Positions 12,454-33,207 of a stretch of 64,000 nt of DNA are shown here, piece by piece. Positions within the stretch are counted from its first letter, which is position 1; each line of letters starts with the position of its first letter. Source of the stretch: Bryobacterales bacterium (GTDB lineage Bacteria > Acidobacteriota > Terriglobia > Bryobacterales > UBA6623); assembly GCA_028819255.1 (NCBI GenBank), contig JAPPMB010000059.1:14971-78970 (forward strand). Reading direction: 5' to 3'. A model generated the notes under the pieces. That model ran no database searches, was not told the origin of the DNA, and was given only the letters and a program-made list of their open reading frames with translations. Position numbers and translations under genes: made by a program.

Positions 12454-15400
12454 CCGCCAAGCCAAGCGAACCCATCCCGGGGTGGGACCAATTGCGCCAT
12501 GCCGGACTGCTGCTGGACGGCCAGCGGCTCCAATCCCTGGACGGATACGTGCCGGGAGCCCTGAACAAACACGTCGAGCAGCGGCTGCGCCGCCGGGCAG
12601 CGGCTCTGACGGGGGGTAGTGACGACCCCGGCAGAACATCGGCCATTTCCCACTTCGTGTCCTTTGTCCTTGAGGAAGTGTGTGGCTTTGGACGGATCTC
12701 GGGCAGCTGGCAACGAGGCAGCCAGGTCCCTCCGGCGCAAGGCAGGCGGGCGGTCACCGGGGAGACCGTCAAGCCCCGCCATCTCTGGAGTGGTTCGCAC
12801 GGCGCCTCGCTACCTGTCTTCATCGGCGAAGCGAAACGGATCGGAATCGGACGCGGCCGCAGGATCGTCAGCCAGGTCCTAGGCTGGCTCAGGGCAGAAA
12901 GCGAGCATCTCGCACTGGTCACCAACGGTCGGCAGTGGCGGTTGGTGTTTGCTGGTCTGGACTACGACGCTTCGTGTGAATGGGATACCGAACTCTGGTT
13001 CGAGGAAGGCGAGCTCGCGGACCAAGTCACGGCCATGAGAACCCTGCTGGGCCCGAAGATCTGGACACCCGGGAAGAAGGGTGCCTCGTCGCCGATTCTC
13101 CAGGCAATCCGTGAGACGCGAAAAGGGCAAGCCGACCTGTCCGAGGTGCTGGGCGAGCGGGTCCGGGAGGCTGTGGAGATTCTGGTGCAGAGCCACGGCG
13201 AAGCCTTGAGGAAGCTTGCCGCCGGTGATGACGAGGTTCCCGAGGCAGACATCTATCGCGCGGCATGCCGGATCACGATGCGCGCGGTTGTCATCCTGTT
13301 CGCGGAATCACGCGAACTGCTTCCTAGGGGCAATACCGTCTATGACGAGAGCTACGGCCTGAACGGTCTCTTCTCCCAGCTCGAACGCCGCGATGCGCGG
13401 GGAGAATCCATGAGCGAGGTCTTCGGGGCGTGGCCGCGCGTTCTTGCGCTCTTCCGCCTGGTGACCGATGGCTCGCACCACCCCGACCTTCCTGTGCATG
13501 CATACGGCGGCGAGCTCTTTGCGGCGGGACGTAGCGACTCCAAGGAAGGAGTCTCCCGAGCCCTCCAAGTTCTCGAGACGGCGTGCTTCGGCGGCAATGT
13601 TATCTCCGATCGAAGTGTCTACAAGATGCTGCACCTCCTGACCCGCACGCGGGCGAGGATACGGCAGGGTCGCGGGGGCATGTGGGTGACCGTTCCGGTG
13701 GATTTCTCCGACCTCTCCTCCGAATACATCGGCATCGTGTATGAAGGTCTCTTGGACTACGAACTCAGGACCGCACCAGACGGAGATCCGGTGGTCTTTC
13801 TCGCAGTTGGCGACCGCCCGGCGCTCCCGCTGTCTCGTCTGGAGGCGATGGACGACAAGGCGATTCGTGAACTGTTCAAGAAGCTCAAGAAGGACGCCTC
13901 CGAAGGCGGAGGGGGGGAGGACGACCGATCGGATGACATATTGGCGGTGGAAGGTAAGGGGCCTGTCACCGGGCCGACGACTTCAGAGGAGACCATTGAC
14001 GAACGCCGGACCGACCGGACACGCGCCGAGGGATGGGCGCGCCGTGCCGCCCAAGTAGCCAGGTTGGTTAGGAAGCCGCGAGGACGGATGACTCCAGAAC
14101 GCCGCCTTGCGTACAATCGGAAGGTCGGTGAGACCGCACGCAAGCTTGTCCACCAACTTGTGCTCCCGGGCGAGTGGTATCTGGTCCGCTGGGGCGGTAC
14201 TCGCAAAGGTTCGGGCAGCTACTACACACGACCCAGTCTGGCGGTGCCAACCGTGCAGCGTACGCTGCGTCCGCTGGCGTACGAACCCCCTGACGGTGTT
14301 CCTCCCAAAGATGCCAGGCACGCACCGGCTACCGATTGGAGTCCAAGGCTCCCGGAGGAAATCCTCTCCCTCAAGGCGTGCGACCCTGCGTGCGGCTCCG
14401 GCTCATTCGTGCTGGCTGCCCTTCGATTCCTGACTGAAGCACTGTACGAATCGCTGCAGCATCATGGTCGCATCGAATCCTACGGGGACCATTCACTCGT
14501 CTGGATGCTCGGAATCAAGGCGGGCGAGAACGACGATGGCGACAGGCTGAGCGACGAACAGATACCCTGTGCTCCTGACCATCCCGACTTCGAGTCTATC
14601 CTCAAGGCCCGCCTGCGACGCCATGTGGTTGAGCGATGCATCTACGCGGTCGACCTCGACCCTCTCGCGGTCGAGCTTTGCCGTCTCTCGCTATGGATCG
14701 AGACCATGGACCGAGATCTTCCGTTCGGGTTCCTGGACCACAAGATCAAGTGCGGCAACGCCCTGGTCGGTGCCTGGCTCGATCAATTCCAACACTATCC
14801 GGCGATTGCCTGGAAAAACCGCGAAGGGGGCGACAAGAACCATTCCAACGGGGTGCATTTCAAGAAGAACGCGCGTGGGGAGGCAATCAAGGCGTTTCAC
14901 ACAGACCGGCTAACGCCTGATATGAAGGAGTTCTTGGGAGGAAAGACATTATTTCACGAGGATCTGCTACAAACGGCTGTTACGGCGCATACTGAAGCGA
15001 TCAAAGTTCTAAACCATATGCACGAGCTGCCCATTCAAGATGCGACCGAGCGGGCGGATGTCTACCGCAACGACCTCCGTGGATCAGCGGAATGGAAGTC
15101 ATTGAGGAACGCTATGGACCTGTGGTGTGCCTGCTGGTTCTGGCCCGCAGACAAGATCGCTTACGCACCGCTACCGACTAGATTCGCGGATCCTCCGGAA
15201 AGAACAAGCGAGGTGGCAAAGGAGGTTGCTGCCCGCTACCGGTTCTACCATTGGGAACTGGAGTTTCCAGATGTGTTCCACAAAGAGGGAGCGGGGTTCG
15301 ATGCGATGCTTGGCAATCCACCGTGGGACATTGCCAAGCCCGCCTCAATGGAGTACTTTTCGAATATCGATCCCCTTTACCGGTCTTACGGCAAGCAGGA

Positions 15401-17816
15401 AGCTCTAGGCAAACAGAAAGAGTACTTTGGAGACGAGGCCGTGGAGCGGGCTTGGCTGGACTATTGCGCTGGCTTCCGTGCTCAGTCTAATTTTGTAGGA
15501 CGAACTCGGAATCCATTCGGGGACCCGGACAAGAGTGACAAGAGTCAGAACAGATTCAGCGTTGTAAGGGGTAAACGAAACGCGGACTTCCATCAACGAT
15601 GGCGAGCCGCTCGAAGACGCTCGCACGGTTTCGCAGACACGCAACACCCGTTCCGTCACCAAGGATCGGCTGACCTGAATCTCTACAAGCTATTCCTCGA
15701 GACAGCGCACGCGCTGGCTAAGACGGGCGGCCGGATCGGGTTCCTTGTTCCCTCTGGGCTCTATTCCGACAACGGAACGAAGGCTCTGCGGATGCTGTTC
15801 CTCAGAGGCTGTCGCTGGGAGTGGCTATTCGGTATCGAAAACCGTGCAAAGATATTTCCAATCGATAGCCGTGCAAAGTTTAACCCCATCATTATCAAGA
15901 AGGGAGGGTCAACTCAAGCAATTCAGACCGCCTTCATGCGCAGAGATGTGGAAGATTGGGAGTGCGCTGAGGAATTGGCCATTCCCTACACTCGTGCGCA
16001 GCTGGAGCAGTTCAGCCCCAAAAGCCGCGCCATCCTTGAGATTCAGTCCGGGCGTGACCTGAAGATTTTGGAAAAAATCTACGCTAATTCCGTGCTGCTT
16101 GGCGAAAACGGGTGCGAAGGGTGGGAGATCCAGTACGCTCGCGAGTTCGATATGACCAACGACTCGCAGCTATTTCCACCCCGCCCGAAGTGGGAGGCGA
16201 AGGGCTACCGTCCCGATGAGTACAGTCGTTGGCTCAAGGGTGATTGGCATCCGATCGAAGACCTATGGACTGAATTGGAAGTCGATCCTGAAAAGCCGGT
16301 GCCCGCGGAGCTCGAACTGGAGGACTGGCTGTTCGACACGAGTGCTGGCCCTGAGCGTCGCGACGCGGAAGCAAAGTATGTGCATGGTCATTTGCTCAAG
16401 CCGGGGGATGTGGCACGGACCGACTGGGCCGTTCGATGTGCACAGCCGCCGTATGACCAGCTGCCGGTTCCGCGCGTGGCGATTCCGCCTGGAATCATTC
16501 TATCGCGGGACGGGACAGAGTGGATTTGGTTTGAGGAGATTCGGGATGTGGCGTTACCGCTTTACGAAGGTCGGATGGTCGGCCAGTTCGACTTCAGTGA
16601 GAAGGAGTGGGTGCGTGGAAAAGGACGGGGGGCAATCTGGAAAGCTATCCCATGGGAATGGAAGGAAATCAGACCACAGTTCCTCATGGGGCTTCACGAG
16701 TACATTGAGCAGAGCGAATTCCTCTGGCGGCCAAAGGTCGTACATATGAACATAGGATCGGCGACGAACACTCGGACAGCCATTGGATCCCTAGTTGCTG
16801 GCATTCCTGCAGGCCACTCCGCACCGATCTTGAGGCTAATAGATGTTCGTCACACGCTGACTTTGACTGCTCTCTTTAATTCGTTCGTGTTCGATTTTGT
16901 CACTCGACGCAGGGTAACGGGGCTACATCTGGACTATCATATCCTCGAACAGAATCCTTTAATGTCCCTCAGAAATACCGTGATTCGATCTGGTATTATA
17001 TCGGAGGCTTCACGAGCACTCTGTTTGTCTCCAAGATGTCTAGCTCCATTGGTCTTGGAATCTCAGAGGGCAGGAGTCAACTTGGACTGGGGAGGTCTAA
17101 TGACTGCCATAACTAATGCAGAGAGAATACGGATTCGAGCTATTCTAGATGCCATTGTATTCGTCATGTTTGGACTGGATTACTACGACCTACAGCGGGT
17201 TCTTGAGGGTTGTGACTCACCCGCTGCGGGTATGGTAGTTAGGAGTTTGAATCCAAAGGGGTTTTGGCGTTTGGATCGCCAGCGTGATCCCGAGTTGCGG
17301 CAAACCATCCTGACACTGGTAGCATTTCGTGACCTTGAATCGAAGATCAATGCTGCGAATGGCATCCGTGCCAAGGGTATCCAGGATTTCTTTGCTCAGA
17401 ATGAAGGGAAGGGCTGGCTTCTTCCTGAATCGCTATGCCTCTCTGACTACGGCTTGGGCCGTGACGAACGGGCTCGCCAGTACCAGCCTGTGGCAAGCAG
17501 GCTTGGCCCTCGATTCTACGACTGGCAACTTACCCAGGCCGGGAGAGAGTTGTGGCATGAGTGGCACCTTCATGCCCGCAATCTCCTAGGTCCAGTGGAG
17601 CACACCTGCTGCCTAGCACCCTCTGCAGGCTCTATCCGGAGTACTTGGCCTGTAGAATATGCGCCGATCACCGCAGAGAAGCATTCTAAGTGGTCGTTTC
17701 GCGGCAGGCACACTAACAAGCATCAAGAACCTAAACGGGAGCACATCTCTCCACGGTCGGCTGCCGTTGCGCAGATGGAACTACCGATCCTGCAGCAGGG
17801 CAACCTGTTTGAATAG
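12450..17816 (+). CDS. Large N6-adenine DNA methyltransferase, DrmMI/Eco57I-like, possible N-terminal nuclease fold
   Basis: 1788 residues, translationally coupled to the upstream helicase. SAM motif I DPACGSGSF (645-653) and catalytic motif IV NPPWD (956-960) identify an N6-adenine methylase of the Eco57I/PglX/DrmMI group. AVDLDPLAVELCRLSLW, between motifs I and IV, matches the adenine-MTase motif II region. The N-terminal 200 residues carry a PD-(D/E)XK-like trace: GEAKRIG with E127-x-K129, followed by TNGRQWRLV, as in type I or IIG restriction N-termini. The C-terminal 600 residues would hold target recognition. The protein is longer than typical single-chain methylases. Base composition becomes visibly more AT-rich after about 15,300, so the 3' half may have a different history. 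In DISARM the methylase marks self DNA; whether this one also restricts is inference. Confidence 0.8.
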   Translation: MTAKPSEPIPGWDQLRHAGLLLDGQRLQSLDGYVPGALNKHVEQRLRRRAAALTGGSDDPGRTSAISHFVSFVLEEVCGFGRISGSWQRGSQVPPAQGRRAVTGETVKPRHLWSGSHGASLPVFIGEAKRIGIGRGRRIVSQVLGWLRAESEHLALVTNGRQWRLVFAGLDYDASCEWDTELWFEEGELADQVTAMRTLLGPKIWTPGKKGASSPILQAIRETRKGQADLSEVLGERVREAVEILVQSHGEALRKLAAGDDEVPEADIYRAACRITMRAVVILFAESRELLPRGNTVYDESYGLNGLFSQLERRDARGESMSEVFGAWPRVLALFRLVTDGSHHPDLPVHAYGGELFAAGRSDSKEGVSRALQVLETACFGGNVISDRSVYKMLHLLTRTRARIRQGRGGMWVTVPVDFSDLSSEYIGIVYEGLLDYELRTAPDGDPVVFLAVGDRPALPLSRLEAMDDKAIRELFKKLKKDASEGGGGEDDRSDDILAVEGKGPVTGPTTSEETIDERRTDRTRAEGWARRAAQVARLVRKPRGRMTPERRLAYNRKVGETARKLVHQLVLPGEWYLVRWGGTRKGSGSYYTRPSLAVPTVQRTLRPLAYEPPDGVPPKDARHAPATDWSPRLPEEILSLKACDPACGSGSFVLAALRFLTEALYESLQHHGRIESYGDHSLVWMLGIKAGENDDGDRLSDEQIPCAPDHPDFESILKARLRRHVVERCIYAVDLDPLAVELCRLSLWIETMDRDLPFGFLDHKIKCGNALVGAWLDQFQHYPAIAWKNREGGDKNHSNGVHFKKNARGEAIKAFHTDRLTPDMKEFLGGKTLFHEDLLQTAVTAHTEAIKVLNHMHELPIQDATERADVYRNDLRGSAEWKSLRNAMDLWCACWFWPADKIAYAPLPTRFADPPERTSEVAKEVAARYRFYHWELEFPDVFHKEGAGFDAMLGNPPWDIAKPASMEYFSNIDPLYRSYGKQEALGKQKEYFGDEAVERAWLDYCAGFRAQSNFVGRTRNPFGDPDKSDKSQNRFSVVRGKRNADFHQRWRAARRRSHGFADTQHPFRHQGSADLNLYKLFLETAHALAKTGGRIGFLVPSGLYSDNGTKALRMLFLRGCRWEWLFGIENRAKIFPIDSRAKFNPIIIKKGGSTQAIQTAFMRRDVEDWECAEELAIPYTRAQLEQFSPKSRAILEIQSGRDLKILEKIYANSVLLGENGCEGWEIQYAREFDMTNDSQLFPPRPKWEAKGYRPDEYSRWLKGDWHPIEDLWTELEVDPEKPVPAELELEDWLFDTSAGPERRDAEAKYVHGHLLKPGDVARTDWAVRCAQPPYDQLPVPRVAIPPGIILSRDGTEWIWFEEIRDVALPLYEGRMVGQFDFSEKEWVRGKGRGAIWKAIPWEWKEIRPQFLMGLHEYIEQSEFLWRPKVVHMNIGSATNTRTAIGSLVAGIPAGHSAPILRLIDVRHTLTLTALFNSFVFDFVTRRRVTGLHLDYHILEQNPLMSLRNTVIRSGIISEASRALCLSPRCLAPLVLESQRAGVNLDWGGLMTAITNAERIRIRAILDAIVFVMFGLDYYDLQRVLEGCDSPAAGMVVRSLNPKGFWRLDRQRDPELRQTILTLVAFRDLESKINAANGIRAKGIQDFFAQNEGKGWLLPESLCLSDYGLGRDERARQYQPVASRLGPRFYDWQLTQAGRELWHEWHLHARNLLGPVEHTCCLAPSAGSIRSTWPVEYAPITAEKHSKWSFRGRHTNKHQEPKREHISPRSAAVAQMELPILQQGNLFE

Positions 17817-17942: not shown

Positions 17943-18698
17943 TCATGCCACAGAGCGAGGCTGGGCTTTGTGACGGCGCCTCGCATGGACCAACCGCCTC
18001 CTCCCATTCCGGTGATGCAGTCGCTTGGGCAACCGAGGGATGCTGGGATCACCCTGCCTCTGAAGGTATGCCAGCAGTTGGAGATCAGCCTGTACGAGCT
18101 CTGGGTCAACGATCTGCCGCAGGGCCATAAGGAGGGATCGGTGACAGTTGCGAAGTTTGATTCTACTTCCGCAAGGACAGGGCTCATGTCCTTTGGGATG
18201 TGTCTTTCGAGCCAAAAGCAGCATGAAGTCGACGATTGAGGTGTGGTTCACCGAGCCCAATGGGGAAAGGAAGTCTTCGAATGCTTCAAAGACGCCTCTT
18301 GCTCCGTGAGACCTCTCGTGGCTAAATGGCCAGTGGCCGTGGCTTTGGTAGTAGGCTTGTGCTACGAGGTATGGTCGAACCAGCGTAGTCAGGAAGTCTG
18401 TAAGATCCGACCTAGGTGGCCAGTGCATCCTGTATTCGGAGGTAACACATAGGCAGGCGAGGCCGTTACGGCACACATGCCGATCAATTTCCCACGGGAT
18501 CTCGCGCTGGTTACACCAGAGCTTGGGGATTCCGCAAGGGTAGTTTCCTGGGATCTCCAAGTTGATGGTGAATCCGAGCCCAGGTTCAATCCACATTATC
18601 CCTGTGACCCTCGCAGGGACTCGCGCCGTATCTAGCGTTAGTGTTGGAAAAGTCTCGGAGAGATGATCTCGCTCTCTTGACGCTGGCATTTGTTTCAT
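17943..18698 (-). CDS. CBASS E2-like conjugating protein with SEC-C motif
   Basis: 251 residues, last gene of the CBASS operon, 6 bases after the CD-NTase gene. Residues 1-145 look like a bacterial E2 (UBC) domain: GFTINLEIPGNYPCGIPKL (the UBC beta-strand and P-rich segment), then H74-V-C-R-N-G-L-A-C82-L, matching the E2 pattern H-x-x-x-x-G-x-x-C-L with C82 as likely catalytic Cys. No E1 or JAB gene is present, which matches the short form of type II CBASS in which only an E2-like protein accompanies the cyclase. A SEC-C zinc motif follows (CPCGSRIKLRNCH, C174, C176, C185, H186). The tail is strongly basic. Family knowledge suggests it activates the cyclase by covalent conjugation; the SEC-C addition is unusual. 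Confidence 0.7.
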   Translation of the reverse strand: MKQMPASRERDHLSETFPTLTLDTARVPARVTGIMWIEPGLGFTINLEIPGNYPCGIPKLWCNQREIPWEIDRHVCRNGLACLCVTSEYRMHWPPRSDLTDFLTTLVRPYLVAQAYYQSHGHWPFSHERSHGARGVFEAFEDFLSPLGSVNHTSIVDFMLLLARKTHPKGHEPCPCGSRIKLRNCHRSLLMALRQIVDPELVQADLQLLAYLQRQGDPSIPRLPKRLHHRNGRRRLVHARRRHKAQPRSVA

Positions 18699-18704
18699 TT
18701 CGAA

Positions 18705-19727
18705 TCATCCAATCTCTTCGTATCCCTTGCTTGCATAGGGTTTTGGGGCTGAGATCAGCGCTGCGATCCTCGCTTTGCTACTGGTCTTCTCTTTTTTCTC
18801 TGCCTCAGCAATTCTCTTGTCGAAGAAATTGGTGTGAAACACTTTTTTCCATGCCTTGAGGGCCTTGGAGCGTGTACAGTTTGGCAGGTCGAGTTCCGCG
18901 AGATCGTCGACAGCTCTCTCAAGAAGTTTGCAGAGATTCCGACTTTGGTGTTCGTTTTCAGCGTCAATAATCCACTCACCCACTACAACGGGATGTCTTA
19001 CATAAGGATTAATGCCGAGGAGATCTAGAATCCGCTTCGCAATTTGAAGGAATTCGATGTCGAGCCTATCATCGCCCATATCATAGCACTCTTTTACCAA
19101 GGTCGTGATTACGAACCCACTCGGAAGAGAGTATGATGGCCGGTTCTTGCAGAAGCTCTTCAGTAAACGAATCAACTCACGTGAATGCCTCCGCTCACTA
19201 GACCTGTTTCGGTCTAACCAATTCTTGAACCAGTCATTCACACCATTTGGGTCTGACTTCTTCCAGTCAGAACTTGCAAGCTCATACCAAACCTCGCCGG
19301 ACCAGTCTTCTCGTTGACGGTAGACTGGGATATCGACATGAGGTCCGTCATTGTAGAATACGCGGACACAGTTAGTCTTCACCTCAGGGGGCGAAACGAA
19401 GGCATCGCTATGAACCGCAGCACAGACCATCTTCCGCACGTCGAGAGCAGACCTCTCCGCGCCCCTCGGCCCTTTCAGCGTTGCAGCGTCGAAGACCACG
19501 CCGTCGTCAATGTCATACGCGTTGTTTGGCTCTTGAGTGACCGTTCGCATCGCGTAGGAACCTTGAGAGACTGACCCAATCGGTGAGGGTCCTCTTCGTT
19601 TCTCAAGACCGCTTCGCAGTCGCTTCCGGTTGCTGTCACGCCGGTCCTTTAGCGTTCCTCGTTGAATAGAGGTCAGAGCTACCTCTTCACGATGGTAGGC
19701 CCGGATGTCCTTGTCACAATTCTTCAT
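18705..19727 (-). CDS. CBASS CD-NTase (DncV/cGAS-like nucleotidyltransferase)
   Basis: 340 residues from the ATG at 19727, which overlaps the end of the phospholipase gene by 14 bases; the open frame extends upstream but without family features. The nucleotidyltransferase signature G51-S-V-S-Q-G-S-Y is followed by catalytic acids D72-I-D74 (YDIDDGVVF), with a third acid at D132 in PHVDIPVY. The C-terminal helical half includes the RELIRLLKSFCKNR segment of the oligonucleotide-synthase fold. These enzymes make cyclic oligonucleotides when phage infection is sensed, and those activate an effector. The chain ends in Glu-Glu-Ile-Gly, and a terminal Gly is the feature used for E1/E2-dependent conjugation of CD-NTases in type II CBASS, consistent with the E2 gene next door. 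The signal molecule is not known. Confidence 0.85.
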   Translation of the reverse strand: MKNCDKDIRAYHREEVALTSIQRGTLKDRRDSNRKRLRSGLEKRRGPSPIGSVSQGSYAMRTVTQEPNNAYDIDDGVVFDAATLKGPRGAERSALDVRKMVCAAVHSDAFVSPPEVKTNCVRVFYNDGPHVDIPVYRQREDWSGEVWYELASSDWKKSDPNGVNDWFKNWLDRNRSSERRHSRELIRLLKSFCKNRPSYSLPSGFVITTLVKECYDMGDDRLDIEFLQIAKRILDLLGINPYVRHPVVVGEWIIDAENEHQSRNLCKLLERAVDDLAELDLPNCTRSKALKAWKKVFHTNFFDKRIAEAEKKEKTSSKARIAALISAPKPYASKGYEEIG

Positions 19728-20847
19728 TTCGATTCCCTTCCATTCTGATTGTATCTGAGTGATTGATCTCCGGCATCGTCTCGAAGATCTGGGATAGTAC
19801 TTCGCCACGACAGTCGCCCGATAGTTGGCACCATCGGAAAGTCTTTTGGCCGTCCTCGTTTCCCAACTGCTTCATGAGGTCACGCGCCTCCTTCGACGCC
19901 GAATCGAGTCGGAGGACGTGGGCCTGCTCCGCTGAAGGCATCGATTCCTCACAGCGCAAAATGTGGACCCGCTTGTCGAGACGCTTCAGTTCGTCCGCGA
20001 GAAGCGTAACCGCGAAGTGGGTGGCCGACACTTGTGCGTTCATGGCCAACTCCAAAGGAAGGACGCCGCCATGCCACGCGATAATGCCGCGGTCGAGCTC
20101 CGCTGGAAGTCGAGACCCGGTTGGCGGAGAACAGGTGCCCACCGACATGACTATGATCGGCTGCTCCGGAACTGAGAGGGCGAGGCCCTCGATGACACCC
20201 AGTAGCATCGGATTGTTTGCCCACAAGCCACCATCGGCATAGGCATGGCCGGTCAGACCATCTGCTGTGATAGACGCCAAGGGAAGATAGATCGGAGCAG
20301 CACTGCTCGCGAGACAGGCGTCGGCCAGAGTTAGGTCGTTATCCCGGTGCTTGTTCTCGAGGTGCGGTGTCTTGAACACTCTTGGCTTGTGGCGAAGGAA
20401 CGAGGTCGCCGATATGCACAGTCCGATGCGGCGCTGTACGTAGACTTCGCCGAGTGTCAGATTCCCAAAGATCTCTCGGAGTTCAGAGTTCAGTGCGGTG
20501 TTGGGATTCCCGGCGCGGCCGAGGTGCCGGACTACCCAGCGATAGAACCGAGCTCTGTCCCGAAACTTCAGCGACCGGTCGTAGGGTGGCATCGAATCTC
20601 TGAAGATCCGAGGTCCCGCCTCGTCGTAGAGCCGGATGACACGGTTTGGTCGGATCCCCGCTACGATGGCCGCCGCTAGGATCGCACCTGTGCTCGTTCC
20701 AACTACGAGATCGAAGCCCTTCCCGATGTCCAGGTGGTCCGACGCTCTGGATTGGGCGAAGCGGCTTGCAAGTGTGTTCAGGACGGTCGCACTGTACAGG
20801 CCGCGCATTCCGCCGCCGTCCAAGGCCAGGACTCGAATCGGGTCCAC
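19714..20847 (-). CDS. capV: CBASS effector, patatin-like phospholipase CapV
   Basis: 377 residues. Patatin catalytic elements are complete: oxyanion loop GGGMRG (11-16), nucleophile elbow G50-T-S52-T-G and catalytic Asp in D205-G-G. The arrangement with a CD-NTase directly downstream is that of CapV effectors, which are switched on by the cyclic nucleotide (3',3'-cGAMP in characterised cases) and degrade the inner membrane of the infected cell. The C-terminal 70 residues extend beyond the patatin core. Overlap with the cyclase start suggests coupled translation. About 80 bases separate it from the upstream protease gene, enough for a weak internal promoter. Confidence 0.9.
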   Translation of the reverse strand: MDPIRVLALDGGGMRGLYSATVLNTLASRFAQSRASDHLDIGKGFDLVVGTSTGAILAAAIVAGIRPNRVIRLYDEAGPRIFRDSMPPYDRSLKFRDRARFYRWVVRHLGRAGNPNTALNSELREIFGNLTLGEVYVQRRIGLCISATSFLRHKPRVFKTPHLENKHRDNDLTLADACLASSAAPIYLPLASITADGLTGHAYADGGLWANNPMLLGVIEGLALSVPEQPIIVMSVGTCSPPTGSRLPAELDRGIIAWHGGVLPLELAMNAQVSATHFAVTLLADELKRLDKRVHILRCEESMPSAEQAHVLRLDSASKEARDLMKQLGNEDGQKTFRWCQLSGDCRGEVLSQIFETMPEINHSDTIRMEGNRNEEL

Positions 20848-20928
20848 AAGCTAATGTTAGCATACGGAAGCTTACAGTTCAGCGCGGAAGACTCTGTCGC
20901 GCCGCTTGGAAGGCATCGTCTGGGGGCG

Positions 20929-21627
20929 TCAGAGCGAACGTTGCTCTCCCGGTGGGAAGATTGACTTGAGCCGAATCTTCGCGACCACAGAGTTCACGTC
21001 GAACGCCGTCACCAAGCGCCGAGCCGCCTGATCCCGCTTGGAATCTGGCAATCTGGGCAGACCGAGTAATCCCGAAGCGACCATGAGCGGTTCAACGCAG
21101 GCCTCGACGAGTCCTCGCGGCAGCAACAGCCCACCAATGGCTTGGTTCGCCTGCCATTCCCACCACTTCCCGTCATAGCCTCGGGAATGGTTGGCGAAGT
21201 CTTCCTTGCGGCACATAATCATTCGACGCTTGTAGTCGAAGCTGCCGTCAAGCAACGGATGGGCCCCGAATCCTTCACTGAACAGCTGCGCGTGGAGCAG
21301 GCCGTGGCCAGCCTCGTGAGCCAACGTGGACCGAACTCGACGTTCGCCAACCCGACCATCGCTGAAGAGCGATCTCGCCGCGCCTACGAGTTCGACACTG
21401 CCACCGGAATCGAAGACGGCAAGACCCAAGACGTCAGGCTTAAGGTCCTCATATGCTATTTGGCAGCCAAGAAACTTCTCGACGAACAGTTCGATCTCAA
21501 TCGCCTTCGGAGTAGATGGCAGACATCCGACCGACTCCAAGGCATCCAAACAGATGCCGTCGATCTCGCCTACGGCGAAGTAGAGTCGGCGGCCGAATGG
21601 CCCTCCGAGTGTTGTCTTCTCTGTCAT
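20929..21627 (-). CDS. ImmA/IrrE-family metallopeptidase, probable CapP-like CBASS activator
   Basis: 232 residues. The zinc-protease helix H104-E-A-G-H108 sits in RSTLAHEAGHGLLHAQLF, typical of the IrrE/ImmA (DUF955) family. Its ATG overlaps the stop of the upstream HTH gene by four bases, and it precedes capV on the same strand. Known CBASS loci can carry CapH (HTH repressor) and CapP (ImmA-like protease); CapP cleaves CapH on DNA damage and relieves repression. Domain content and coupling fit that pair well. The remaining zinc ligand is not certain by eye, though the acidic segment after KWWEWQANQAIGGLLLP, typical of the family, is present. Confidence 0.75.
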   Translation of the reverse strand: MTEKTTLGGPFGRRLYFAVGEIDGICLDALESVGCLPSTPKAIEIELFVEKFLGCQIAYEDLKPDVLGLAVFDSGGSVELVGAARSLFSDGRVGERRVRSTLAHEAGHGLLHAQLFSEGFGAHPLLDGSFDYKRRMIMCRKEDFANHSRGYDGKWWEWQANQAIGGLLLPRGLVEACVEPLMVASGLLGLPRLPDSKRDQAARRLVTAFDVNSVVAKIRLKSIFPPGEQRSL

Positions 21628-21992
21628 GGGGTCTCTTGCTCCGGATCCGCGTCAGTGAGCCTGCTCACCAGTTCTTCCGGCGTCAGTCCCTTCTCGATCT
21701 GTTCAGCCGTCGTCCGGAACGCCACGCCCCAGCGCGGGTTGGTCTGGGATAGGTGCTTGAGTGTCGACAGCGATTCTCGGAAGTCGTACCTGCGAAGGTC
21801 GCTTGCGTCGACTTCGAGTTCAGTTGCGATGGCTTGGAGGACTCCGGGCGACGGGAACCGATGCCCCAATTCAACATCAGATATGAATGGTGCTGATTTT
21901 CCGACCTTCATCGCAAGTTGTCGTAGCGAGAGGTTCTTCTCCAGTCGCAGCTCTCGAATCCTCTGACCCAATGTCTTGGCCTCCATTTCCAA
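21624..21992 (-). CDS. XRE-family HTH regulator, probable CapH-like CBASS repressor
   Basis: 122 residues. The N-terminal 65 residues form an XRE/Cro-type helix-turn-helix: LGQRIRELRLEKNLSLRQLA, then VGKSAPFISDVELGHRFPSP, with the ISDVELG recognition segment. The rest is helical and acidic and could dimerise or contact the protease. It heads the CBASS operon and overlaps the protease gene (ATGA at 21624-21627), as in CapH-CapP modules. Likely autorepressor of the operon. A palindrome 88 bases upstream of its start (22080-22093) is a candidate binding site. ATG at 21986 is an alternative start. Confidence 0.75.
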   Translation of the reverse strand: MEMEAKTLGQRIRELRLEKNLSLRQLAMKVGKSAPFISDVELGHRFPSPGVLQAIATELEVDASDLRRYDFRESLSTLKHLSQTNPRWGVAFRTTAEQIEKGLTPEELVSRLTDADPEQETP

Positions 21993-22222
21993 TCGCCCCC
22001 TATCTGTGGTTGGATGGTATCGAAGGTTCGCCAGCCGGCTCGGTCTGGAAGGTCGTCAGTGCTGCCCTACCGAGCCCAAGACCTCAAGAGGTCGATCATG
22101 TTTGCACTTGCCATGTCTCCAAACTCACGTTGTCAGTCTAGCGCGCATCAGCCGACTGTGAGATTCGAGATGAAGTCGACCAACAGTCTCCGTACCACAC
22201 CAGCTACCGTCTCCCTCAACAC
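21993..22222. promoter_or_regulatory. Divergent intergenic region between CBASS regulator and DUF1998 helicase
   Basis: 230 bases separate the divergent starts and must hold promoters for both directions. No confident -10/-35 pair can be picked by eye. A perfect 6-2-6 palindrome lies inside and is listed separately. Confidence 0.5.
22080..22093. promoter_or_regulatory. Palindrome, candidate operator
   Basis: GACCTC-AA-GAGGTC, perfect 6-bp arms with a 2-base spacer, in the middle of the divergent promoter region. The size suits a Cro-like dimer. Assignment to the adjacent HTH protein is inference. Confidence 0.35.
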
Positions 22223-25200
22223 ATGGCCCTGAATCCCGTCGTCTACATCGAGAAGGTCACGAAGAGCTTCCTCCGTTACCAGCTCACCGCCTACCCCTTC
22301 TCCGATCCCCACCTCTTCGCGCAGATGCGCGATCTCCTTTCCCTTGACCACACTCGAGCGTCTCCCCTCCTCCGAGGCCCGTACGTAAGCCTCTCCCGCC
22401 CCTTCCGGGCCGGTGCTCCCATCCAGCAGATGGTCAGCGAAGGCATCATTCACCCCCACCTGGCGTCCAGGGTCCCGTCAAGCATCACCCATTTCTACAG
22501 CCATCAGGAGCGCGCACTCCGGGCAATCGGCGAGGGCCGCACGACGCTGATCTCTACCGGCACCGGTTCGGGGAAGACCGAGTGCTTCCTCTATCCGGTT
22601 GTCAGCCAGTGCCTGAGACTCCAGGACGAGTCTGCGGCACCCGGGATCAGCGCTGTCGTCGTCTACCCGATGAACGCATTGGCCGAGGACCAGCTCATGC
22701 GGCTCCGCGGGCTGCTGGCAGGCACGGGAGTACCCTTCGGCATCTATATCGGGAAGACTCCGGAGCGGGAAGTCGACGTGGCCGGTGCCCGCCTCCGTCC
22801 AGGCTCGTCGCGTGCGGATTACCTGGCTCGGCTTGAGAGAGCCCGACGGGACGGCACCGGCGAGACCGTTCACCCGGAAGAAGAGGTCTGCTCGCGCCAA
22901 GCTATGCGGTCACCTGGAGGGCAGCCCCGAATCCTTCTCACCAACGTCAAGCAGCTTGAACTGCTTCTCACAAGACAGAAGGACATCGAACTGTTCTCGG
23001 GAGCGCGCCTCGACTACTTGGTCTTCGACGAAGCCCACACCTTCAGCGGTGCAATGGGGGCCGAGACGGCCTGCCTGATCCGCCGTTTGAGATCGTTCTG
23101 CAACATCGCTCCCGGGCATGCCAGATGCATCGCCACCTCGGCGACCATCGTCGACCGAAACGATCCGGATGCGGCCCGCAACTTCGCGGCGAGGTTCTTC
23201 GGCGTTGCGGCCGACGAGGTTGTGACGGTTGGGGAAGACTACGAGAGCGAGACTTGGGCCGAGCCGCGAGTGGTCCCGCCAACGCCGAACGGGGATCCTT
23301 CGAAGATATTGGAAACGTGCGTCGAGGCCGTGGAAGACGAAGACAACTTTGGCTCCGCGGTCGAAGGGGCGTATCGCTTGCTGTCAGGCCGGACCCTGCA
23401 CACTCAGGGCGCGAACGGATGGTCCGCCGCCCTCCACGCCGCGCTCTCCCGCAACGAGTTGGTCTTCCGTCTCAACGACGAACTCTCCGGGCCACGCCCG
23501 CTTGATGAGCTTCCCGACGCTCTCAAGAAGCACGTTGGGCGGCCCGTCACCGAAGCCGAGATTCTCGCTTGGCTGACCCTCGGTGCGGCCGCACGGCACG
23601 ATGAACGCCCGCTGTTGCGGCCCGTTGTCCACGGATTCGTTCGTGGGATCGGGGGAGCGGTAGTGTCATTTCCGGAGCACCACCAAGGCGCGAAACTTTG
23701 GCTCGCCGCAAAGGACGACACCGGCCTCATCGAGTCCGAGCAACATTACGCACACCTTCGGGTCATGACATGCACCGTTTGTGGACAGCACTACTACATC
23801 GCTTTCCTCAAGGATTTCTCGTACACGGGCAAGCAACCTGGAGGCGGGGAGGCCAGCCAGGATGGCGCGTACTGGGAACCCCTCGACGAAGCGAACGGTG
23901 GCAGGCGATTGGTATTGATTGATCATCTGATCGGCCAAGCCGATTCCGACAGCAACCCGGCGTCTACGCGCACTGCGTCCCTCCACTTCTGCCGTCGCTG
24001 CGCCGCCGCCCATCCCAAGCGGGTGGACCGGTGTCGCTCTTGTGGCCACGCCGGTGTCACGGTAGATCTTCACGTGGTCCGGCAGAGCCGCGAGAAGCCT
24101 GGCAAGTTGACTAGCTGTCTGTCTTGCGGTTCCACCGGCCACCGGGTGCTGGGACGCTACCGGGAGCCGGCACGGCCAGTGCGGGCGGTGCCAGTCGCGG
24201 ATGTCCACGTCCTGACCCAGGACATGGTGCATCACGCGGCTCGGCCGCGACTGCTCGTGTTCTGTGACAACCGCCAGGACGCGGCGTTTCAGGCAGGCTG
24301 GATGAAGGATCACGCCCGCCGCTTTCGTCTCCGGGCGCTCATGTCGGAGGGCATTCTGGCGAATCCGGGAACCTCGGTAGGAGACCTGACGGGCTACCTC
24401 GAGGAGCGTATGGAGGAAGACGAGGCTCTGTCCCGGGCACTCATTCCGGAGGTCTGGCAGGTGGCCCGACGTGAGGGCTCTGCCTCCCGCCACATGCGAG
24501 AACGCCGAAAGTACCTCCGCGTTCAGGTACTGCGGGAGGTCACCCTCTCTTCACGGCAGGCGCTCGGTCTGGAGCCCTGGGGCAGGATGAGTGTGCAGTA
24601 CGACGGGCTCTCCTCTTCGCTTCCTTGGGTCCAGGAAAACGCTCTCCGGTTGGGCATCCCAGCCGACCGCCTGCGGGATGGAGTGGCAAGCGTCCTCGAC
24701 TACTTTCGCCGCCGAGGAGCGCTACTCGACCCTGAGTATAAGGTCTTCACGAAGTACTGGGGCGAGGGCTCACTTGAAGTGCAGCAAGGCTTCATCCCCA
24801 GCTTTATCAGGCCGCTGGGATTGAAGTTGCGGCGGGAACCGGACGAGGAAGGCAAGTGGGTCATGCAATGGCTCAGCAGCTCCGGTGACACGACGATGCG
24901 CCAGATTGCCAGGAAGTGGGGCGAGCCTTCCGACTCGATTGCTCCGTTTCTGGATGGCTTCTACGCATTCCTGGTTCGGCAGAACCTCCTCAAGCCGGTG
25001 CGCCTGCTTGGAGCACGGGGCAGAGCTCTGCCGAACCTTGAGGGCGTGCATCAGGTCAATGGGGACGCCCTCAGGCTCCACCCGAACACACGCCTCGCAC
25101 GCTGTAGAAGGTGTCGCCGCACGATCACTCGCGAAGTTCCGAAGGGCCGTTGCCCCGCTTGGCGCTGCAGCGGCAAACTCGAATGGATCCGCGAGAACCC

Positions 25201-27685
25201 GGACAACTACAACCTTCAGCTCCTCGATGGGGCGTACGCGATGCTTCGCCCCGAAGAGCACACGGCCATGGTCCCCAACGACCACCGCGAGCGCCTCGAG
25301 AACTGGTTCAAGGGTGATTCCAACGCCGTCAACTGCCTCGTCTGCACACCGACACTCGAACTTGGGATCGACATCGGCCGTCTCGATTCGGTCCTGATGC
25401 GCAACGTTCCGCCGCTCCCTGCGAACTATTGGCAGCGAGCAGGGAGGGCAGGACGCCGCCACCGGATGGCGGTCAATATGACCTATTGCCGCCCGGTCTC
25501 ACATGACCGCGCCTACTTCGTGGAGCCCCCGAAGCTGCTCGGTGGGCGGATCGACCCTCCGGCCTTCAATCTCCGAAACGAGGTCATGGTTGCCAAGCAC
25601 GTCCACGCGACGGTTATTGGCTCGCTGCACCGTCTCGGCCGTGATTCCCGGCGGCCGAAGTCCGAACGGCAATTGGTACGTGGGGTTCTCGACACATGCC
25701 TTCCCGGGAAGGTCACACCGTACCTGTTCGACGGAGAGTATGTGCGACAGCAACCGTTCGATTTTGCCCAGCTGCGGGATCTTATTCGCCAGCATGGGCC
25801 GTATCTGGTGGACAACGTGGGCTCAGTCTTCGATCAGGGCTGGCCAGAGGCCGATTCGGACGTTGTGACGCCTGGAGCGCTTCGCAAGCATGTCGATCAC
25901 TTTGTGGATGAACTCGAAGAGGTGGTGGCACGACTGCGTCGGCGCCTGCGATGGGCAATGGCGCAGATCGCGCGGCTGAATAGCGTGCTTGCAAGCCGCG
26001 GGACACTGAGCAAGGAGGACGAGGCGCTTTTCAGGCGATGTAGGCGGCTCGTCAGCCGGCTGAAGGGCGAGGCATCCGGGCGCAGCCGTGCGGAGGGCCA
26101 CGATTCCTCGATCACGTTCAGTGTCTTGGCGGCAGAGGGATTTCTGCCTGGCTATGGACTGGAAACCGGTTACGTAATCGCATGGGCGGAAATCCCCTAC
26201 TGGGTTGAGGGTGGGATGGACTTCGTCCTTCCGAGACCTCCGGCGACGGCGTTGCGCGAGTATGTGCCGGGCAACCTCATCTATGCCAACGGGCACCGCT
26301 TCGCTGCCCGCCGATTCCACCGGGATCCGAGCGAAGAACACGTCGATATGCCCGTGTTCGAAGTATCCGCCGAGCATCAGGCAGTCAAGGAGACGACCGC
26401 CGGTGTGTCGTCATCGCTTGGGGGTAAGATCCTTCGTGCGATGGCGGTCTGCGACGTCGACCTTGTCCATGTCTCTCACATCTCGGACGACGAGGACCTG
26501 CGCTTCCAGCTCGGAGTTGCCGTATTCGGCGTGGAGCTTGGCCAGCACAGCGGAGGTAAAGCCTTCCGATGGGGTGGCCAGTCCCTGCTCATGAGGCGAG
26601 GCGTGCGAATACGTCTTGTCAACGTTGGTGTTTCAGAGGCTATCAAGAGCGGAATCGGCCTTGGGTTTCCGGTTTGCACCATTTGCGGACAGAGTGTCTC
26701 GTCCCTGTCATCGGAAGCCCAGCGTGAGAAATTCCGCGAATCCCACCAGACGCGCTGCGGTCGCAACCCGGATCCGGTTGGATTCTACGCTGACATCGCG
26801 GCCGATGCGCTGTCGCTCCCCGGATGCACGAGCGCGACTCAAGCCTACAGTGTCCTCGAGGCTCTTCGGATAGGCGCGACAGGAATCTTGGACATGCACA
26901 TGGAAGATCTTCAGATCCTTGTGATTGGCGAGATCGGAAACGAGGCGGTAAATGGGCTGCTTTGGGATCCCATGCCTGGAGGCTCGGGCCTTCTGGAGCG
27001 TCTGTACGAACGGTTCGCCGAGGTCATTGAGGCTGCCCGGGACGTAGTGACAGCCTGCCCTGGCGCCTGTGAGTCGTCCTGTGTCGACTGCCTGCAAACC
27101 TTCCGCAACTCGTACTACCACAATCGGCTCAACCGAAGGATCGCCCTCGATACACTCAAGAAATGTGGCCATCAACTGGCGTTTCAGCACGAAGTCTCTC
27201 CGCAGCTACCGGCTTCTCTGCAATCCGATTACGCAGTGCCAGTCAACTTGGCGGAAACGAAGCTTCGCCATCTGCTGATCGCAGCTGGATTCGGGGAAGG
27301 GGTCCGTGGACACCAGATCCATCTGGGCGGTGCCCTCGGCACCACAACTCCAGACGTGATCTACCGTGACCCGGACGACGATTACTGCAGAGGGGTGTGC
27401 ATCTATCTTGACGGCATGAGCAGACACATCCACGGGAACCCGAAAACAGCCCAGAGGGACCGGGCAATCCGCACATGGCTGAAGGGCAGCGACTACGAAG
27501 TTCTGGAGATCCCTGCCAACGAGCTTGACGACCAAGACGCTATGGCGCGGCACTTTCGTCGTCTGGCGATGTATCTCGGCCAAAGACGGAAGGCGCGGAG
27601 GTTGGCCAGAGACAAGAGTTGGTTCACAAATCCCGAGTCATCGGGAATTCGCACCTTGCCCCGTGGCTCCCAAATCTCAGACTGA
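22223..27685 (+). CDS. Giant DEAD/H helicase with DUF1998 and Vsr-like C-terminal domain (DrmA/DrmB- or DruE-like)
   Basis: 1820 residues. Motif I TGTGSGKTE lies near 112-120, Walker B DEAH near 268-271, then SAT near 304. Motifs IV-VI are far downstream: TPTLELGIDIG (about 1040) and QRAGRAGRR (about 1072). Between the lobes lie several zinc-type Cys clusters (CTVCGQ, CRRCAAAHP..CRSCG, CLSCGS, CRRCRRT). DUF1998 is marked by C-P-G-A-C-E-S-S-C-V-D-C-L near 1612-1624. The last ~120 residues (AETKLRHLLIAAGF ... TPDVIY ... IYLDG ... RDRAIRTWLKGSDYEVLEI) resemble Vsr/DUF559 endonuclease-like domains seen on DruE-type helicases. DISARM splits helicase and DUF1998 into DrmA and DrmB, whereas Druantia DruE keeps them in one huge chain. 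It lies beyond the inserted CBASS operon, on the same strand as the methylase. Predicted to unwind or translocate on foreign DNA. Confidence 0.8.
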   Translation: MALNPVVYIEKVTKSFLRYQLTAYPFSDPHLFAQMRDLLSLDHTRASPLLRGPYVSLSRPFRAGAPIQQMVSEGIIHPHLASRVPSSITHFYSHQERALRAIGEGRTTLISTGTGSGKTECFLYPVVSQCLRLQDESAAPGISAVVVYPMNALAEDQLMRLRGLLAGTGVPFGIYIGKTPEREVDVAGARLRPGSSRADYLARLERARRDGTGETVHPEEEVCSRQAMRSPGGQPRILLTNVKQLELLLTRQKDIELFSGARLDYLVFDEAHTFSGAMGAETACLIRRLRSFCNIAPGHARCIATSATIVDRNDPDAARNFAARFFGVAADEVVTVGEDYESETWAEPRVVPPTPNGDPSKILETCVEAVEDEDNFGSAVEGAYRLLSGRTLHTQGANGWSAALHAALSRNELVFRLNDELSGPRPLDELPDALKKHVGRPVTEAEILAWLTLGAAARHDERPLLRPVVHGFVRGIGGAVVSFPEHHQGAKLWLAAKDDTGLIESEQHYAHLRVMTCTVCGQHYYIAFLKDFSYTGKQPGGGEASQDGAYWEPLDEANGGRRLVLIDHLIGQADSDSNPASTRTASLHFCRRCAAAHPKRVDRCRSCGHAGVTVDLHVVRQSREKPGKLTSCLSCGSTGHRVLGRYREPARPVRAVPVADVHVLTQDMVHHAARPRLLVFCDNRQDAAFQAGWMKDHARRFRLRALMSEGILANPGTSVGDLTGYLEERMEEDEALSRALIPEVWQVARREGSASRHMRERRKYLRVQVLREVTLSSRQALGLEPWGRMSVQYDGLSSSLPWVQENALRLGIPADRLRDGVASVLDYFRRRGALLDPEYKVFTKYWGEGSLEVQQGFIPSFIRPLGLKLRREPDEEGKWVMQWLSSSGDTTMRQIARKWGEPSDSIAPFLDGFYAFLVRQNLLKPVRLLGARGRALPNLEGVHQVNGDALRLHPNTRLARCRRCRRTITREVPKGRCPAWRCSGKLEWIRENPDNYNLQLLDGAYAMLRPEEHTAMVPNDHRERLENWFKGDSNAVNCLVCTPTLELGIDIGRLDSVLMRNVPPLPANYWQRAGRAGRRHRMAVNMTYCRPVSHDRAYFVEPPKLLGGRIDPPAFNLRNEVMVAKHVHATVIGSLHRLGRDSRRPKSERQLVRGVLDTCLPGKVTPYLFDGEYVRQQPFDFAQLRDLIRQHGPYLVDNVGSVFDQGWPEADSDVVTPGALRKHVDHFVDELEEVVARLRRRLRWAMAQIARLNSVLASRGTLSKEDEALFRRCRRLVSRLKGEASGRSRAEGHDSSITFSVLAAEGFLPGYGLETGYVIAWAEIPYWVEGGMDFVLPRPPATALREYVPGNLIYANGHRFAARRFHRDPSEEHVDMPVFEVSAEHQAVKETTAGVSSSLGGKILRAMAVCDVDLVHVSHISDDEDLRFQLGVAVFGVELGQHSGGKAFRWGGQSLLMRRGVRIRLVNVGVSEAIKSGIGLGFPVCTICGQSVSSLSSEAQREKFRESHQTRCGRNPDPVGFYADIAADALSLPGCTSATQAYSVLEALRIGATGILDMHMEDLQILVIGEIGNEAVNGLLWDPMPGGSGLLERLYERFAEVIEAARDVVTACPGACESSCVDCLQTFRNSYYHNRLNRRIALDTLKKCGHQLAFQHEVSPQLPASLQSDYAVPVNLAETKLRHLLIAAGFGEGVRGHQIHLGGALGTTTPDVIYRDPDDDYCRGVCIYLDGMSRHIHGNPKTAQRDRAIRTWLKGSDYEVLEIPANELDDQDAMARHFRRLAMYLGQRRKARRLARDKSWFTNPESSGIRTLPRGSQISD

Positions 27686-28447: not shown

Positions 28448-28858
28448 AGCGCGGGCGACCTGACCGAGCAGCTGTGGCGACGGATCGAGAACGAGTGCAG
28501 AGAGATCGAGGAGTTGACCAAGATCGAATTTGAACCGCTCGGCGAGAACTCGCGAGCCGCCGCGAGTAATGCTCTGCGTACCGTCGAGCGTGATACGGAG
28601 GAAGCCGCCATGCGGATGCGTGCGCTGTTGCCGATGGCTTGGCTCGGTATTTTCGGCGGACGCGGGGTGACGATGAGTTTGTTGTGGAAGCGGATCGAGA
28701 TGGGCGTCGAACTCAACTTCGACATCGAAGGGGCACTCGATGAGCCCTTGTCTCCCAATTGGCGAGGATGCGTTCGCCACAACCTTCCCGTCGGGCGACG
28801 GCCGAGGTTGCTGGTCCCTGCGATCGACCGCCCATTACAGCAGTACCGTAGCGACTAA
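28448..28858 (+). pseudogene. Truncated frame with coiled coil and membrane helix
   Basis: The open frame begins after TGA 28445-28447 and has no ATG in its first part. It starts DLTEQLWRRIENECREIEEL, a charged helical segment, continues with a Glu/Arg-rich heptad-like region, then a hydrophobic helix (LLPMAWLGIFGGRGVTMSLLW). This looks like real coding sequence that has lost its start. The end overlaps the tail of the convergent RecD-like gene, so the last 40 residues are doubtful. A role in plasmid mobilisation is possible from the helix-plus-membrane layout, but I cannot name the family. Confidence 0.3.
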
Positions 28859-31800
28859 GTCGGCAATCTGCTTGGCGTCGATGCCACCACCCTCATCGTC
28901 TCGCGTGGTGATCAGTGTCCCGGCGTCACCGCCGCCTTCCTCATGCGGAATAATGTCGGCAGCACGATACGCGGCTAGCTTACGCTCCCAGCGGTCCGCG
29001 TAGTCTGGGTTGTGCAATAGGCCGAGGTGTTCCCAGTAGTATCGTTCACCTGTGTCGTCGTCTATGATCGTAAAGTCCGGGTAGCGCGTATGGTTGTTGG
29101 GCAACCGGAGCGGTGCCTCGTACTGGTAACGGTCGACTCCTTGAGCGAGAAGTTCATTGGCAATGATGACCTCGGATTTCGACCGCACGAGATCGCCACG
29201 CTTGGTCCGATGGATTAGTCCGTCCTCTAGGAAATGCTCCCTCCCGTCAACCTCGACCAAGATCGGGCTGGGCGGGCCGAAGAGATTTGTCACCCTGCGT
29301 GCGATGTCGGAGTATCTCTCGCTAGAGTAGCGACGTAGGTCACGTACATTGCCTTGATGCAGGACGACGACGCGTTCCTTCTGCCGTGTGAGTGCCGTAT
29401 ACAGCAGCTCGCGGGATAGGAGCCAGCACGGATTCGGTAACACGACGAACGTTGTCCCGAACTCGCTTCCCTGCGTCTTGTGGACGGTAAGAGCGTACGC
29501 CAGTTCTAGGGGCGGTCCCTCCTCTCCATTGAACTCCCCCGTATGGAAATTGTAGGCGTGGCCAGGCTGAGAGGTGAACTCCACTTCGAGCCGCGGAAAC
29601 AGTCTTTTCTGCTTCCAGCTCCTGTAATTGCCGACGACGAGCCCTACGTCACCGTTCGCAACATACGACTGGCGCTTGGGGTAAACGGTTCGTTGAGTAC
29701 TGTTCTTCAGGTTAATGACTTTATCCCCGTATATAATCCCTTGTGGCCCGAGCGGAGGGTGTACCTTGCGTCGTCCCCTATAGGCGGACATTGCGCTTGT
29801 CATCCATTTACTTCGAAAAGACTGCTGGACGACACGGTTTAGGACGCCCACACCGTGTTCGGCTCCTCGCACCGGAGAAATAATCTGCCATCGTTCAGCC
29901 TTCAGATCGTGATCTTTCCGGCTACGCCTAAAGTAGGTCCTTCCTTTGTACATCGTCGCGCCGAGCCCGCGTTCGAAGCCCAGTTCGTCGTCCAAACCAC
30001 CGAGACCGAGCTCCCTAGCGATGAGCGAGAGCAAGCGCCTGTGGAGGTCTTCGCCATCGCTCCATGACTCGAAGCCGATCTCTGCCGCCTCCTCAGTTTC
30101 GAGTCGGTCCCAAATCTCGTCAGCGGCCGGATCCGCAGTGCCGCCGAACCAATTGGCCAACAGCAGGTCGGCTCGTGTCGTTCCTTTCTGGCGGCGTGGG
30201 ATCGTGAGTTCGGCATAGCCCCGCCCTACCCGCGGGAAGTGGTGCTCGAGGCCCTCGGGTGCTAGTTCTCGGACAATATCGACGAAGGGGCGCCCGGATC
30301 CAATGGGCGGAAGCTGACGAGGATCACCGACCAGAACGAGACGGTCAACGCCACTCAGACCGTCGAGCAGAGCAGCGAGTTGCTCTTCGGTGAGCATTGA
30401 ACACTCGTCGACGATGACCGTCCGGTAGTTGCCGCACCGGTCTGTGCTGCCGGTAACGCTGTAACGACCGGTGGCCGGAACGTATCGCCTGCCATACCGC
30501 ATCAGGAACTGCGCGACCGTGAGCCCTCCTGCCACCTTGGTCTTAGTTTCAAGCTGCACGCGTGCCTTTCCGGTGGGAGCCAGCAGCAGGACGCCACTGG
30601 ACGAGACGCCGGTAAGTCCGCAGAGCATTTTGAGGAGCGTGGTCTTCCCGGTCCCGGCTGCACCGACCAGCACGGAGAGCCTCGACGCGAAGAGCTCGGC
30701 GAGCGCGGCCGCTTTCTCAGTGCGCGCATGTTCCTCGATTGCGCGGTCGGTCCAGTCCGGCGGCAGCGCCTCAAGGGATTCGTCGACGACCGAGCGGAAG
30801 TCGTGTGTACTCTTGTGGCGCCGACTCCTGGGACCCAGCCGCTTTTTGACCGTCCTGCGAATAAGCCGAGCTGTGACCGTGAATCGTCGAAGCTGGTATC
30901 CAAGGCTACCGTCGGCCATCTCGACGGAATCGACAACCGGACATAGGGAATCACCAGCGCCAGCAATCACTTCTGGTCCAACCGGGCAGTCGGTCTCCAA
31001 CGGCATCTTGTCGATCGTGGCCTTCAGCCAGTTGCGAGGCAAGAGCGTGTGTCCCTGCTCGGCACCATGCTCGAGCGCCGCAACCAACAGCGCTCGCACC
31101 CGGCGGGGGTCGACCTTGTCTTCAAGCCGAGAGCGTTCGGGCATCGGATGTGCCTCCAGAATGACCCGGTCGGGTAGCATGCCGCGGTCGATTGTCATCA
31201 CCGAGATGGGATCGCGGGACAGACGATCGAGTTCGTAGAGTAGGTATGGATTTGAAATCAGGCCCGCGTCGTCAACGTCTTCCCGTCGCAGATCAGGATT
31301 GAAGAATCGGATAGCTTGGTTGGTCTCGATCGAGAAGCGGCTGAGAAGCTTCAGCACTTCCTTACGTTCTGGAGTCATCGCGAGCCAAGCACCAGCGAAG
31401 CCTTGGCCGATGAGCCCCTTGGCAGAGCGTGTAGCTGTGTGAGGCGCTCGCATCACCTCCTCGAACGCGGGCCACGGATCGATAGTGCGGTCGCCCCTTG
31501 CCGCCGAGCACTGCTCGGCGAGTTCGTAAGCCACCAAATTGCCTCCGTCACCAAGAAGCGCGCTAAGGGCGGAGCCGAAGCCGGGAAAGGGACCCCGCAA
31601 ACGCCACAGCCGGTTGAGTTGCTGGTCGAGCCAAGCCCTCGCACGTCTCCAGCGGCCAGGCAGCAATGTTTCGATGCGGTCCAAGGCCCGCATACAGTTG
31701 AGCACCGCTACGATCGCGTGGTCGTGCGATACGTGCTCCGATGCGTACGAGAAACTCCAGAATGCATCATCCGGGGCAAAGGCGAGGAACTGCTCGGGGT

Positions 31801-32650: not shown

Positions 32651-33207
32651 GAGTTATCGTAACTCTCCCGAGATGGTTGCGGTCCCGCACCGGACCGTCC
32701 ATTCGACCTCACCGCGGGTGCTAGCCTACGGCCACATCCGCCTTCAACGCCAGCCCGGAGCCCGCGAACCGCTTCCCCATCACGGTCGATCGAGAACCCC
32801 TCTTGTGGCCTGTCATTGGTCCGCGCCCAACTCGATCGCGAGTTCGCCTCGGTCGAGGAAACCATTCTCACGGGAACGACCGGCTGACACCAATCATTAC
32901 TCGGACCCGAGACGTGACCTCTCGAGGTCGATGAGGCATCGTTCCTCTTGATACGGAAGTCCTTGGTCTTGCCATCTCTTCAAGGCCAGTGCTCCGGGGT
33001 GGGCGTCCGTGTCCTATGGAGGCCCGTCTGTGACCTACTTCGCCTACCCCGACGAGTTCGGCCACGGCGGTCGCTACGCACGCCGCGAAGATCCCGAACA
33101 CGACGACAGTCCGGTGTCTCGTCCGGCGGACTTCGTCCCCGAGGCAAATGCCCACAGCCCTTGCGCCGCTCACACAGTTCCCCAGCGCAGAGAGCATCCT
33201 CGCCAAA
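32651..33207. other. No intact gene recognised
   Basis: Short frames on both strands (for example a plus-strand frame from 33009) show no family features. The right part includes the 3' flank of the decayed ATPase copy that follows. Confidence 0.4.

Follow-up and report, generated by a model that had tools for sequence, protein, structure and literature searches.

CapH and CapP accompany CBASS (cyclic-oligonucleotide-based antiphage signalling system), BREX, Pycsar, DISARM and Bub operons (PMC13373217). CapP, activated by single-stranded DNA, cleaves CapH, and the operon is thereby derepressed (PMC13373217, PMC10904395). In the protease PprI, a GAF-like domain takes part in binding single-stranded DNA (PMC10904395). 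Here we describe a pair of genes of this kind in a 64,000-nucleotide stretch of a Bryobacterales genome (contig JAPPMB010000059.1, positions 14,971 to 78,970; hereafter the window), where a capH-like helix-turn-helix (HTH) repressor gene and a capP-like ImmA/IrrE (M78) metalloprotease gene precede a short type II CBASS operon, with a helicase gene diverging on the opposite strand. We conclude, with a probability of roughly 80%, that the pair is a CapH/CapP-type (DdrO/PprI-like) switch for the adjacent CBASS operon, with its operator at 20855-20876 and with the helicase probably outside its control. The pair very probably turns CBASS on after DNA damage.

The minus-strand cassette runs from 21992 to 17943 in the order HTH repressor, protease, capV, CD-NTase (cGAS/DncV-like nucleotidyltransferase) and E2-like gene, so that the first two genes lie together, directly upstream of CBASS and on the same strand, as in CapH/CapP systems. 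The HTH open reading frame (ORF; 21624-21992) and the protease ORF (20929-21627) overlap by four nucleotides, ATGA at 21627-21624, and a gap of about 230 bp (21993-22222) separates the former from the helicase ORF (22223-27685, plus strand). An earlier, sequence-only reading of the locus had described this overlap upstream of capV, had noted that the regulator and a DUF1998 helicase gene diverge from one region of about 230 bp, and had likened the pair to CapH/CapP. The ORF coordinates match the first two points exactly, and the profile, fold and motif evidence below bears out the third.

The repressor (21624-21986, minus strand) consists of an XRE HTH (helices 6-65) followed by a three-helix C-terminal domain. 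It matches Pfam HTH_3 (4e-12) and PADLOC capH (8e-9), and its AlphaFold2 model (pLDDT, the predicted local distance difference test, 86) resembles DdrO (6jq1/6rnx) over its full length and the N-terminal domain of CapH (7t5u); these fold matches and the capH profile together identify an XRE HTH with a C-terminal dimerisation domain. Relatives suggest that translation begins at the ATG at 21986 rather than at the TTG at 21992. In the alignment of relatives, the recognition-helix region SAPFISDVELG is nearly identical across the loci that carry the motif described below, a Phe/Leu-Arg pair is conserved in the C-terminal domain, and Arg91 is invariant, making Phe90-Arg91 a possible scissile bond.

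The protease (20929-21627, minus strand) is a short, divergent version of CapP. It carries a zinc-binding HEAGH at residues 104-108 and a downstream glutamate, E157, within WWExQAN. H104, E105, H108 and E157 are invariant in 18 protease sequences, QAN is invariant or nearly so, and C139-R140 is nearly invariant; Pfam M78 is detected in 15 of the 18. PADLOC capP matches the protein at 8e-7, over profile positions 26-122 of 242. Sequence searches of the PDB with single proteases gave no match, but comparison of the AlphaFold2 model of the window protease (mean pLDDT 89) placed CapP 7t5t first (E 4.7e-4; template modelling score 0.52) and PprI next. The zinc HEXXH, the downstream glutamate and the CapP-like fold thus occur together in this protein.

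The operator of the repressor is most likely the inverted repeat TGTTAGC-ATACGGAA-GCTTACA at 20855-20876, predicted from motif conservation and lying in the gap between the protease gene and capV. For the search, 14 sites from outside the window's clade (L018, L019, L026-L031, L034) were combined into a half-site matrix, which was then run on the window. The repeat scored 24.2 bits, compared with 13.3 for the runner-up in the 64 kb and a maximum of 20.0 in 30 simulated 64-kb sequences. In a search of the 6.7-Mb genome allowing three mismatches, it was the sole exact TGTTAGC-N8-GCTTACA. A genome-wide regulon was considered and rejected, as near matches to the operator, in N8 and N7 versions, are no commoner than matches to a control pattern. 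The predicted operator would overlap the spacer and -10 element of a putative capV promoter (20854-20882, minus strand), read by eye against those of L022 (TTGACG-N17-TAACGT) and L029-L031 (TTGACA-N17-TAAGCT). Its candidate elements are a -35 CTGAAC (20882-20877), a 17-bp spacer and a -10 TAACAT (20859-20854), the last of these 6 nucleotides before the GTG start of capV. The related locus L022 carries an operator-like site at the same place, and in both the window and L022 the site before capV is the only one retained.

The same motif, TGTWAGC-N6..8-GCTWACA or close variants and mostly with N7, recurs at relatives of the pair in many phyla. Two copies per locus were found in L018, L019, L026-L031, L034, L082-L085 and L089, irrespective of the immune operon downstream: the first lies 17-48 bp ahead of the repressor gene and the second 16-39 bp after the protease stop (16-20 bp in many loci). 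In the promoters of relatives, the upstream copy is seen to overlap a TTGACA-N17-TAAGCT promoter immediately ahead of the repressor start. Among nine held-out loci fetched later (L082-L090), the best sites fell at both predicted places in six, as they did in most of the earlier loci; L087 has a weak site before its repressor. Immune operons of several kinds follow the pair, which often has both operators: CBASS in L019, L026, L029 and L031, E2/ThiF/JAB operons in L018, L027, L028, L030 and L032, and BREX in L036. In L020 (4647-9612), the genes after the pair encode an AMP-binding enzyme, which has no PADLOC match, followed by an unknown protein and an alpha/beta hydrolase. These loci could represent a distinct short-protease CapH/CapP subfamily that is spread over many phyla and uses a common operator, TGTWAGC-N7-GCTWACA, at two places: before the repressor, and 16-40 bp after the protease stop in front of whichever immune operon follows (CBASS, ubiquitin-like or BREX). 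If so, the damage switch would be portable and bring its own output promoter, and its sensor may be a conserved Cys-Arg insert instead of a GAF-like domain. We regard this broader proposal as evenly balanced.

Several observations weigh against a CapH/CapP-type switch acting at the capV promoter. The three next relatives of the cassette, L023-L025, have half-sites before capV, in a non-canonical arrangement and without the canonical inverted repeat, and the spacer of the window operator is 8 bp, compared with 7 in most loci. The putative capV -35 and -10 hexamers are weak, and a consensus promoter scan does not call them. The protease has only 232 amino acids (aa), compared with 291 for the 7t5t chain, and its sequence match to CapP is weak. 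It has no room after its last helices for a PprI-type GAF-like domain, so that the trigger could differ.

From the computed families and folds, the catalytic motif, and the conserved motif with its placement, we infer the binding, cleavage, trigger and promoter steps of the following scheme. A repressor dimer would bind TGTTAGC-N8-GCTTACA at the capV promoter, covering its spacer and -10, and keep CBASS expression low. Following DNA damage, the protease would be activated, presumably by single-stranded DNA, and would cut the repressor within its C-terminal dimerisation domain, perhaps just ahead of the invariant Arg91. The repressor would then leave, and capV, the CD-NTase and the E2 would be expressed. 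Both the assignment to CapH/CapP-type switches and the control of CBASS by DNA damage are well supported, with the trigger itself presumed.

Among the alternatives, the one that survives best also has the pair driving CBASS from 20855-20876, but adds that the helicase is damage-induced indirectly, or that the gap between the HTH and helicase genes holds a second, degenerate operator missed by the motif search. Since most relatives carry a second site ahead of the repressor gene, autoregulation is typical of the family, and the window's site might simply be aberrant. However, the best matrix scores are -2.9 in the 120 bp before the HTH gene and 1.1 in the whole divergent region (21993-22222), compared with 10 to 25 in most loci that carry a site, and we consider this alternative unlikely.

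Still less likely is the model advanced in the sequence-only reading, in which the repressor binds the palindrome GACCTC-AA-GAGGTC in the divergent region and governs both CBASS and the helicase from there. The palindrome is present exactly at 22080-22093, between the two divergent starts, and regulation of their own promoters is common among XRE repressors. Yet such a repeat is expected by chance. Of 1000 sequences obtained by dinucleotide shuffling of 21993-22222, 35% held one or more inverted repeats with 6-bp arms when spacers of 0-8 were allowed (mean 0.53), and 59% did so with spacers of 0-20. A terminator scan calls the palindrome terminator-like, but the shuffles average 1.2 such sites, and a terminator was likewise rejected. 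The only other genomic copy of GACCTC-NN-GAGGTC lies at 32916-32929, 266 bp upstream of another defence gene, PDC-S68 (28835-32650, minus strand), as would fit a shared operator. Seven other arm/spacer combinations also recur within the 64-kb window (G runs excluded), however, so two copies are weak evidence; the flanks of both copies share little beyond GAT, and we rejected the second copy as part of an operator common to the helicase and PDC-S68.

The palindrome is not conserved at related loci either. Upstream of the repressor in the four closest cassettes, L022-L025, the best match still has 4 or 5 mismatches. Copies with two or fewer mismatches are absent upstream of two helicase relatives from the same genus, G015 (73% identity) and G009. 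The same holds for the 400 bp immediately before the helicase in seven of eight additional relatives, and for a ninth, L099; in the remaining one of the eight, L098, a match with two mismatches lies at -351. In L033 and L036, near-identical sequences, GACCTTCTGAGGTC/GACCTTCTGAGGCC stands 349 bp before the repressor, 1 or 2 mismatches from the palindrome, and we judged this a coincidence. By blastn, the sequence is similar to the L022 cassette as far as 22013 and to the G015 helicase locus from 22195 onward, so the palindrome sits in DNA conserved with neither neighbour (22014-22194). We therefore judge it a chance inverted repeat in an unconserved junction. The family's conserved motif differs from it in sequence and place, sitting in the capV promoter instead of the divergent region to which the operator had been assigned.

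The surroundings of the helicase likewise argue against shared control. The helicase (22223-27685, plus strand) is a DruE-like DEAD/MZB(DUF1998) protein by its domain and PADLOC profiles. In G015, of the same genus, the helicase gene lies about 170 bp downstream of a methyltransferase gene on the same strand, with neither CBASS nor repressor between them; in the window, the CBASS cassette, on the opposite strand, separates these genes. Neither the repressor nor the protease has a match in G015 or within 1.5 kb upstream of the eight further helicase relatives in the phylum. From the adjacency of methyltransferase and helicase in G015 and the lack of a repressor near helicase relatives, the divergent arrangement is best read as the junction of two defence modules, and CBASS appears to have been inserted in the window rather than lost in G015. 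The helicase promoter, which has no such operator site, is probably independent of the switch. Shared control of CBASS and helicase by one repressor is thus not supported: the helicase promoter lacks the family motif, and helicase relatives do not stand beside such a repressor. Around the junction, a DrmD-like helicase, a DrmMI/type IIG-like methyltransferase and the DruE-like helicase (9151-17816 and 22223-27685) form a single island that the antisense CBASS cassette seems to interrupt. The closest CBASS cassette, that of L022, also has a DruE-like helicase downstream (L022:9055-14286), but a different one. In G009, the place of CBASS upstream of the helicase is taken by a gene (L081:1898-3448) whose 517-aa product contains a CapP-like M78 domain (PADLOC capP 5e-14).

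The rest of the cassette has the composition of a short type II CBASS. The capV gene (19714-20847, minus strand) encodes a patatin-like phospholipase effector (Pfam Patatin 7e-30; NCBIfam CBASS_lipase above cut-off). It is followed on the same strand by a DncV-like CD-NTase (18705-19808, with a likely start near 19730; Pfam DncV-like 8e-18, PADLOC Cyclase 1e-109) and an E2-like protein with a SEC-C motif (17943-18698; PADLOC E2 1.5e-39). The HTH protein, protease and CapV of L022-L025 are 57-75% identical to those of the window, and all five genes stand in the same order in L022, L023 and L025, as they do in L024 up to the contig end inside the CD-NTase gene. The least likely reading is that the pair serves as a toxin-antitoxin system or a general ImmR/ImmA stress module and stands beside CBASS by chance without regulating it: HTH and M78 pairs are widespread, and some are described as toxin-antitoxin systems or regulators of integrative and conjugative elements. 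Two things speak against chance: the kept gene order, and the presence after the pair, in most related loci, of a defence operon (CBASS, E2/ThiF/JAB or BREX) with an operator directly before it.

In practical terms, the place to look for control by the repressor is 20840-20890, not the divergent region. The operator motif, common to relatives in many phyla, serves as a marker for immune operons under such damage control. More generally, two genes that diverge within a defence island need not be under common control, as two modules were apparently joined here.

Compared with known systems, the window pair is closest to CapH/CapP of CBASS, as represented by E. coli MS115-1 CapH and Thauera sp. 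K11 CapP (7t5t): both have an HTH repressor and an adjacent M78 metalloprotease upstream of CBASS, and the best fold match of the protease and a match of the repressor HTH are to CapP (7t5t) and CapH (7t5u), respectively. Unlike that CapP, the window protease is about 60 aa shorter and has a longer, Cys-Arg-bearing insert between HEXXH and the glutamate. DdrO/PprI (IrrE) of Deinococcus similarly combines an XRE repressor that has a three-helix C-terminal domain with an M78 protease and an operator inside the promoter, but the predicted window operator differs from the 17-bp RDRM (radiation/desiccation response motif), and its regulon is local, not genome-wide. CapK/CapS shares with most relatives of the pair the use of two sites, before the regulator and before the immune operon, although it is a kinase and a winged HTH repressor of unrelated chemistry with TTAA half-sites (PMC13373217, EMBO J 2026). 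ImmR/ImmA of ICEBs1 and TnSmu1 also encodes repressor and antirepressor protease together (PMC10233336), but controls an integrative element, not a defence operon. The switch thus belongs to the already known CapH/CapP kind, to which this analysis adds a useful definition of the operator motif and of its place downstream of the protease gene.
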